DNA from: Desulfobacterales bacterium
Lineage (GTDB): Bacteria > Desulfobacterota > Desulfobacteria > Desulfobacterales > JAFDDL01
Length of the DNA: 64,000 nucleotides
Direction of reading: 5' to 3'
Assembly: GCA_034003325.1 (NCBI GenBank)
Contig: JAVEYW010000005.1
Location: forward strand, 220,508 to 284,507
The notes below the pieces were generated by a model. The model was not told the DNA's origin. It searched no databases and saw nothing but the letters and a program-made list of their open reading frames with translations. A program made the translations under genes and the position numbers. Position 1 is the first letter of the stretch; every line of letters starts with the position of its first letter. Positions 6,757-56,224 of the stretch are shown here, piece after piece.

Positions 6757-6794
6757 CACACCGTTTCTATTCTTGCGGGATTAGACCCTTTTTT

Positions 6795-6917
6795 AGGCCC
6801 TTTCGACCCGTTACCAGAAACATGCACGCTTGTGCGTGTATATTTGCCAAAGGTGAAAGATGGCTTTTATGCATTCCAGCATCCCAGCATCCCAGCATCC
6901 GGCTTTGCCGGATCAGG
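6795..6917 (+). repeat. Dispersed intergenic repeat, copy R1
   Basis: First copy of the element family also found at 28687, 40449 and 49711. In order: left edge TTTAGGCCCTTTCGA, conserved CCAGAAACATGCACG, hairpin CACGC-TTGT-GCGTG, a conserved middle (GATGGCTTTTATG), three 8-bp units of the type CATYCCAG, and a final hairpin ATCCGGC-TTT-GCCGGAT. The element ends exactly where the stop codon of the minus-strand UDP-glucose pyrophosphorylase begins (6918). Open frames through it are by-products of the repeat. Confidence 0.85.
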
Positions 6918-28686: not shown

Positions 28687-28820
28687 CCTAATCCGGCAAA
28701 GCCGGATGCTTGAATGCTGGAAAGCTGGGATGCATAAAAGCCATCTTTCACCTTCGGCGAATATACACGCAAAAGCGTGCAAGTTTCTGGTAAAGGGCAT
28801 ATGGTAATCGAAAGGGCCTA
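28687..28820 (-). repeat. Dispersed intergenic repeat, copy R2 (inverted)
   Basis: Minus-strand copy of the element seen at 6795. It has the left edge TTTAGGCCCTTTCGA, CCAGAAACTTGCACG, hairpin CACGC-TTTT-GCGTG, the GATGGCTTTTATG core, three 8-bp units (one altered to CTTTCCAG, one to CATTCAAG), and the final hairpin ATCCGGC-TTT-GCCGGAT. The TAG in its left edge is the stop codon of flgM, so the element and gene share those bases. Confidence 0.85.
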
Positions 28821-40267: not shown

Positions 40268-40474
40268 TTAAACGATCAGCGCTACCGACGGCAGATAATG
40301 TTTTACACCATCGAGTGCCAGGTGAAACATTTTACTGCCGTAAAGAATGACAACGGCATTGTCCTTATTAACGCAAAGCTCGGCGAATAAGGGGCCGATG
40401 ATGATGGTGGGATCGGTTGTTTCGGGGTGCGCCGTTAGGGCGGCAACCCAGGACCCTTTACCAGAAACATGCAC
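40268..40474 (-). pseudogene. Possible truncated DsrE-like gene running out of repeat R3
   Basis: A 68-codon frame whose start codon lies inside repeat R3. From residue 9 on it looks coding: VAALTAHPETTDPT, PLFAELCVNKDNAVVILYG and MFHLALDGVKHYL follow the first half of DsrE/DsrF-family sulfur-relay proteins (N-terminal strand, helix, strand 2, helix 2). A TAA follows where such proteins would continue for about 60 more residues. I read it as a decayed copy with its upstream region replaced by the repeat. It could instead be a small real protein. Confidence 0.4.
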
Positions 40475-40564
40475 GCCTTTGCGTGTATATTCGCCGAAGG
40501 TGAGAGATGGCTTTTATGCATCCCAGCATTCCAGCATTCCAGCATCCGGCTTTGCCGGATTAGG
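40449..40564 (+). repeat. Dispersed intergenic repeat, copy R3
   Basis: Third full copy of the family. It has CCCTTTACCAGAAACATG, hairpin CACGC-CTTT-GCGTG, the GATGGCTTTTATG core, three units CATCCCAG, CATTCCAG, CATTCCAG, and the terminal hairpin ATCCGGC-TTT-GCCGGAT. The left edge is shorter than in R1 and R2. It overlaps the 5' end of the DsrE-like remnant. Confidence 0.85.
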
Positions 40565-49623: not shown

Positions 49624-49710
49624 CCGGCGGCCTCACCTATACTGCAGACCCGGTCGTAAAACTCTGGCATTCGGTGGGGGATTTGTGATAGGAAGGCAGC
49701 TTCGATATGA

Positions 49711-49807
49711 AGCCCTTTACCAGAAACATGCACGCTTTTGCGTGTATATTCGCCGAAGGTGAAAGATGGCTTTTATGCATCCCAGCATCCGGCTTTGCCG
49801 GATTAGG
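49711..49807 (+). repeat. Dispersed intergenic repeat, copy R4 (shortest array)
   Basis: Fourth well-conserved copy, with GCCCTTTACCAGAAACATG, hairpin CACGC-TTTT-GCGTG, the GATGGCTTTTATG core and the terminal hairpin ATCCGGC-TTT-GCCGGAT. Only one 8-bp unit (CATCCCAG) is present where the other copies have three, so the copies differ by exactly 16 bases there. Confidence 0.88.
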
Positions 49808-56086: not shown

Positions 56087-56190
56087 AACCCAAACCGGCA
56101 AAGCCGAAAGCCGGGCGGCTGGGCTGCCTGGCGGCCGACGACCTTCTCCGGTTATCCACGCTTTTTTAAGCATGTTTCTGATAAAGACCC
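56087..56190 (-). repeat. Strongly diverged relative of the dispersed repeat, R6
   Basis: On the minus strand this stretch keeps the element's order: CTTTATCAGAAACATGC, a stem with GCGTG, a GAAGGT core, three 8-bp blocks of the pattern nGCCnnGC (CGCCAGGC, AGCCCAGC, CGCCCGGC) and a final CGGCTTTGCCG hairpin. Spacer sequences differ from R1-R4, so it would be a separate subfamily. It lies between the DUF3842 and cooT genes, inside their probable operon. Confidence 0.6.
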
Positions 56191-56224
56191 CCAGCCGCTT
56201 AGTGACACTGACGACAATACCGGC

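Follow-up and report, generated by a model that had tools for sequence, protein, structure and literature searches.

In the 64,000-nt stretch of Desulfobacterales DNA analysed here (the window), an intergenic sequence of about 100 bp, with two hairpins and an array of 8-bp units, recurs several times. This raises the question of what kind of element it is and how it came to be dispersed. An earlier note, made from the letters of the window, described four copies (R1 to R4) and offered two readings, a non-autonomous element moved in trans and a structured RNA.

Copies in the window and in the host genome

All four copies were present as described, with loops TTGT, TTTT, CTTT and TTTT and arrays of 3, 3, 3 and 1 units, and they were recovered with E-values of 1e-22 to 1e-23 by a covariance model built from 50 genome copies. 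The set of four had lacked a fifth, diverged copy belonging to a second family (R5). The features of the window are as follows.

6802..6916, + strand: copy R1, family A (covariance-model search, 118.5 bits), with the three-unit array CATTCCAG, CATCCCAG, CATCCCAG
6793, + strand: start of the extended left end of R1, which opens with TTAG (sequence)
6818-6821, + strand: putative guide AAAC of R1, the 4 nt preceding the left hairpin (sequence)
6822..6841, + strand: left hairpin of R1, ATGCACGC-TTGT-GCGTGTAT (sequence)
6872..6895, + strand: array of R1, three 8-bp units (sequence)
6897..6917, + strand: right hairpin of R1, ATCCGGC-TTT-GCCGGAT, with the terminal T(C)AG, then G (sequence)
28688..28820, - strand: copy R2, family A, with extended left end and three-unit array (cmsearch 28688-28802, 114.5 bits; sequence)
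40449..40563, + strand: copy R3, family A, with three-unit array (cmsearch, 118.8 bits)
49708..49806, + strand: copy R4, family A, with one-unit array (cmsearch, 112.7 bits)
56090..56193, - strand: copy R5, degenerate family B, with AAAA-type loop and CAGCCGCC units (cmsearch, 64 bits, E 7e-12; sequence)

R1 and R2 share an extended left end (TTAGGCCCTTTCGA...), and hence R2 reaches to 28820; the TAG within its left TTTAGG is the stop codon of flgM (28818-28820; FlgM by Pfam, and sequence). The neighbours in the window are ordinary genes: those for a sensor kinase and a UTP-glucose-1-phosphate uridylyltransferase lie around R1, the FlgM gene lies beside R2, and an adenylate cyclase gene precedes R4. 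At 6781-6805, R1 has three consecutive left-end starts (TTAGACCC, TTAGGCCC and TTCGACCC), as if left ends had been stacked.

The host genome (G000; 4.62 Mb in 46 contigs, 97.6% complete) was then searched in three ways. Allowing up to 3 mismatches, a core pattern of 52 nt gave 75 copies (reversed-pattern control, 0), far more than chance would give; pattern searches for the ends gave 169 right hairpin ends and 137 left ends (controls, 0), and the covariance model gave at least 150 matches. The case of few or no further copies, which the earlier note named as refuting its suggestion, was thus itself refuted.

The copies fall into two families to which both ends are common. Family A, which includes R1 to R4, has the loop TTTT, the core CGCCGAAGGTGAAAGATGGCTTTTATG and CATYCCAG units; 86 full copies were read, with a mean left-part identity of 0.895. 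Family B (23 copies, mean left-part identity 0.81) has the loop AAAA, the core ATCATTGGAGAAGGTYGTTRGCTGCCAAG and units CATCCCAG/CAGCCGCC, and looks like an older sister of family A.

The copies are intergenic and of mixed orientation to the genes. According to greedy ORF calls, which make both counts approximate, they are fewest between divergent genes (11/69), and the stop codon of a neighbouring gene lies inside TTAG/CTAA in 13 cases. At least 10 copies stand head to tail directly behind the hairpin and TTAG of another copy, often an A behind a B; an automatic count gave 18, among them false positives (e.g. L002 and L014) that were removed by eye. Locus L029 (G000:C9:184094-185195) contains two copies in inverted arrangement, 855 bp from each other, with a common, unusual four-unit array haplotype, which suggests that they underwent gene conversion or were duplicated together. 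A composite transposon was considered at this locus and rejected, the gene between the two copies not being recognisable as a transposase.

Ends, target and array

The element is ~95-130 bp long, with the ends TTAG-RCCCTTTAYCAGAAAC... and ...CCGGCTTTGCCGG-N-TTAG|G. The + strand consensus of family A reads TTAG | RCCCTTTAYCAG AAAC ATGCACGC-TTTT-GCGTGTAT ATTCGCCGAAGGTGAAAGATGGCTTTTATG (CATYCCAG)n C ATCCGGC-TTT-GCCGGAT TAG | G, and in 11 copies the extended left end precedes a second CCCTTT. Alignment and folds place two subterminal hairpins at the two ends, on the same strand. Alignment and end comparison revealed no terminal inverted repeats in the copies of the host genome, and no target duplication beyond TTAG. 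The bases at the left and right ends vary independently of each other, which argues against a normal target duplication.

The two TTAG sequences have also decayed to different extents. In family A, deviations from the consensus affect 14.5% of the positions of the left tetranucleotide, against 5.2% of those of the adjoining arm (p=5e-8) and 3.2% of those of the right TTAG (p=1e-7), a ~4.5-fold difference between the two ends that is partly due to the 11 copies with the extended left end. The left TTAG therefore looks like host target DNA and the right one like a part of the element. Of 121 copies, 104 have a G directly after their right TTAG, whereas about a third of background TTAG sequences are followed by G; this position is roughly as variable as the left TTAG. 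Most simply, a TTAG|G target in the host would have supplied both the left TTAG and the base that follows the right one, with the right TTAG itself being the element's own end. When the joined flanks of full copies (at least 150 bp on both sides) were compared with the collected loci of the host genome, they matched only neighbouring copies, and no empty site was found.

Between core and right hairpin, family A copies carry 1 (8 copies), 2 (17), 3 (40), 4 (9), 5 (3) or 7 (1) units, and one family B copy (L162) has 13 units of the CATCCCAG type. On contig C4, an insertion is duplicated together with its flanks (identical over ~1.3 kb upstream); one version has 3 units and the other 2, and an exact 8-bp gap separates them. 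Arrays do change by whole units, as had been proposed from the window, and length variation exists even within one genome. These arrays, which vary in situ beside a hairpin, lend themselves to studies of how unit arrays originate near secondary structure, and they could be used as strain markers.

Three other roles were considered for parts of the sequence. A G-quadruplex (GGG every 8 nt on the - strand of the array) is not favoured, since many third units are CATTCCAG, which interrupts the GGG run. A coding role, raised by the resemblance of the conserved AAGGTGAAAGATG to a ribosome site and start, was dropped since units of 8 bp interrupt every frame and the ATG is lacking in family B. For attC sites, no GTTRRRY cores were seen.

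Relatives in other genomes

Among 389 genomes of the order, the left module was detected within 3 mismatches only in the host genome (137 hits), G125 (5) and G025 (1). Family A DNA had no match in 57 same-order genomes, and its core had none in a broader collection of genome contigs, where the left module gave one real hit, in Desulfatitalea sp. BRH_c12 (order Desulfobacterales). G125 is identical to this strain over 1560 bp. No match was found in viral contigs.

In G125, the left module belongs to an element of ~200 bp that is bounded by inverted termini of 20 bp (GGTTATGCACTTCGCTCCAGT) and contains an array of the 7-bp units CTTTACA/CTTTAAA (e.g. L264, L272 and L284). The core of this element, AATCGACAGAATNCC, occurs in at least 86 copies (control, 0), many of them in ~200-bp elements. 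The single copy in G025 combines the left module with a different spacer, in which there are short repeats, and with CCGGCTTTTCCGGCTTAAGG. The homology of these modules rests on ~84% identity over some 37 nt, counted by eye, together with the position of the hairpin. As the left module is joined to differing arrays or spacers in the three genomes, the end module appears to recur while the array differs by lineage.

The 7-bp array also varies in place. In the related species G234 and G311, a stand-alone core with the array (CTTTAAA/CTTTACA) is found at orthologous intergenic sites (L330/L324, L331/L301, L333/L290 and L291/L286), and array lengths at orthologous sites differ by 14, 14 and 24 nt between conserved flanks. 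As a separate observation, these two genomes, which otherwise differ by 4-8%, share 3-kb stretches that are 99.97-100% identical (L310/L321 and L306/L317), for which recent exchange and mis-binning are the alternatives.

A broader idea is that the arrays are made by a dedicated unit-adding step, coupled to transposition or hairpin priming, and not by passive slippage, within a modular mobile-element superfamily of Desulfobacterales-type bacteria in which a conserved left end (TAGRCCCTTTAYCAGAAACATRCACG plus hairpin) has been joined, lineage by lineage, to differing 7-8-bp arrays (CATCCCAG here, CTTTACA/CTTTAAA in G125). We regard this as an improbable, speculative extension of the data.

Proposed mobilisation in trans and comparison with known systems

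It seems to us very probable that the element is a non-autonomous mobile DNA of one kind or another. The suggestion of the earlier note that an element is moved in trans is supported by at least 150 dispersed copies, constant ends, TTAG targeting and the lack of a linked transposase. More specifically, we infer, with about even confidence, a high-copy non-autonomous element of the IS200/IS605 kind (PATE- or REP-like) that is mobilised in trans by a Y1-type transposase. A Y1-type (HUH, single-tyrosine) enzyme acting in trans would bind both subterminal hairpins on one strand of the DNA; the element would be excised as single-stranded DNA and would insert 3' of a TTAG|G target, so that it has the host's TTAG on its left and ends on the right in a TTAG of its own. 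The 8-bp array between core and right hairpin may later change in length by replication slippage beside the hairpin.

The comparison with IS608 favours such an enzyme. IS608 inserts 3' of TTAC, retains this TTAC at its left and ends at the right in its own tetranucleotide, reading both tetranucleotides through guides at the foot of the subterminal hairpins (PMC5934647, PMC6006769). For the left end, positions 1 and 2 of the guide are reported to pair with target positions -3 and -4 (PMC5934647); from the pairs AAAG/TTAC and GAAT/TCAA, position 4 would pair with target position -1. For a TTAG target the rule predicts the guide AANC. The AAAC preceding the left hairpin in 107 copies fits this in 3 of 3 pairs, a post hoc agreement that speaks for a Y1 enzyme. 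The CAGC at the foot of the right hairpin fits in only 2 of 3, and this, like the overlap of that hairpin with the first T of TTAG, speaks against one. The G after the right TTAG resembles the +1 preferences of IS608 (TTAC|C) and ISDra2 (TTGAT|G) (PMC5934647). Also in favour of the Y1 reading are the copies inserted directly behind another copy's hairpin and TTAG, the unequal decay of the two TTAG sequences and a G.T wobble of the left hairpin that pairs on the + strand only. If the Y1 reading is true, nature has provided, in the TTAG/AAAC pair, a one-base variant on which the IS608 guide rule can be tested.

Intact Y1 genes are present in the host genome, two of them at C1:142493-142837 and C17:115143-115472. 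The first, an IS200-like gene (L101, G000:C1:142493-142837), is bracketed by inverted hairpins of its own, CCCAGGGTTGCGGC-AAA-GCCGCTACCCTGGG, which differ from those of the element, and gene and hairpins are candidates for a separate mobile unit. A Y1_Tnp search of the host genome and of G125, G025, G225 and G234 found no Y1 gene flanked by the left end, right hairpin, core or terminal inverted repeat, in agreement with the absence of a linked transposase noted for the window; this counts against the Y1 reading, as does the failure to find an empty site. By local GC skew, a weak proxy, no clear lagging-strand bias was seen (66 of 121 copies, t=1.3).

Several rearranged copies were found. At L175 (C10:40487-40546), two left halves form a perfect palindrome about the left loop; at L088 (C3:321588-321762), the right halves of a B and an A copy are joined around the left hairpin loop; and two copies break off inside the right hairpin loop (L023 and L072). 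These fusions and breaks would fit template switching on hairpins in single-stranded DNA.

The main competitor of the Y1 reading is a MITE-like non-autonomous DNA moved by some other transposase or recombinase, unlinked or lost, with TTAG as a target preference or a 4-bp duplication. Dispersal, constant ends and the TTAG at both ends would be expected here too, and the true 20-bp inverted termini of the G125 relative indicate that more than one route of mobilisation is open to the superfamily. However, the classical MITE traits, terminal inverted repeats and target duplications, are absent from the host genome, the inverted-terminus form being confined to G125; the left and right bases lack the co-variation expected of a duplication, and the two TTAG sequences decay unequally. 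We consider this alternative a serious one, though somewhat short of even odds.

A structured RNA (3'-UTR or small RNA) preserved for its fold was the other reading offered for the window. Both hairpins are predicted to be stable, and the + strand folds better than shuffled sequences (z = -3.05 and -2.42, DNA parameters) and better than the - strand. A G.T pair in the left stem of 97 of 121 copies, which would be A.C on the opposite strand, marks the + strand. However, compensatory base-pair changes, which the RNA reading had led one to look for, were absent from 50 aligned copies, and stems decay as fast as core and spacer (Fisher p=0.37). The impression of a fixed stem with a variable loop holds among R1 to R4 but disappears genome-wide, where deviation is 4.0% in the stem, 4.9% in the loop and 4.7% in the core, the apparent decay of the core being lowered by the gathering of copies through pattern search. 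Once the consensus wobble is set aside, wobble-type and opposite-strand changes in the left stem balance (18 to 19, own count). The fold is therefore not maintained after insertion, which speaks for a role in movement and against an RNA product. With orientation to genes being mixed and Rfam covariance models giving no match, the RNA reading seems to us very unlikely.

With this element, a populous family of small mobile DNA becomes known from a bacterial group for which none like it was found in the literature searched. Like REP, REPIN and BIME sequences spread by RAYT (PMC3733652, PMC3116915, PMC6006769), it has a hairpin beside a fixed tetranucleotide, more than 100 intergenic copies, clustering and head-to-head palindromic composites, and two RAYT-like genes (L102 and L103) are present in the host genome. 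Against a canonical family of this kind spread by a RAYT (TnpA_REP), its tag is TTAG/CTAA instead of GTAG or CGTC, each repeated unit spans 100 bp and has two different, unrelated hairpins and an array of 8-bp units, the RAYT-like protein tested scores 68.4 against an NCBIfam cut-off of 80, and the RAYT-like genes are unlinked to the element and have no flanking hairpin; we hold such an assignment to be highly improbable.

Constant parts around an array are also known from the BrickBuilt MITE of Porphyromonas gingivalis, an intergenic element with a leader and a tail (PMC4596501). In contrast to the element described here, BrickBuilt has 23-bp units, IS5-type terminal inverted repeats and 19 copies. 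BOX elements occur in more than 100 copies, and their boxB units are ~45 bp long. In streptococci the number of their internal units varies between ends that stay constant, as here, but their terminal inverted repeats, likened to those of an IS (PMC3049150), have no counterpart in the present element. The heptameric intergenic repeats of Xanthomonas and Nostoc (PMC4692102) are similarly short-unit arrays between genes, whose position is kept while their length varies between species; they are described as simple repeats and not as part of a hairpin-ended mobile element.

Compared with PATEs, non-autonomous derivatives of IS200/IS605 (PMC7290912, PMC5934647), the element differs in its at least 150 copies, its internal 8-bp array, the partial fit of its right guide and the absence of a detected parent IS with these ends. 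It shares with them a short length, ends without terminal inverted repeats or target duplication, subterminal hairpins on the same strand, a fixed tetranucleotide apparently retained at the left with another closing the right, a +1 base preference and, at the left hairpin, a guide-like AAAC.
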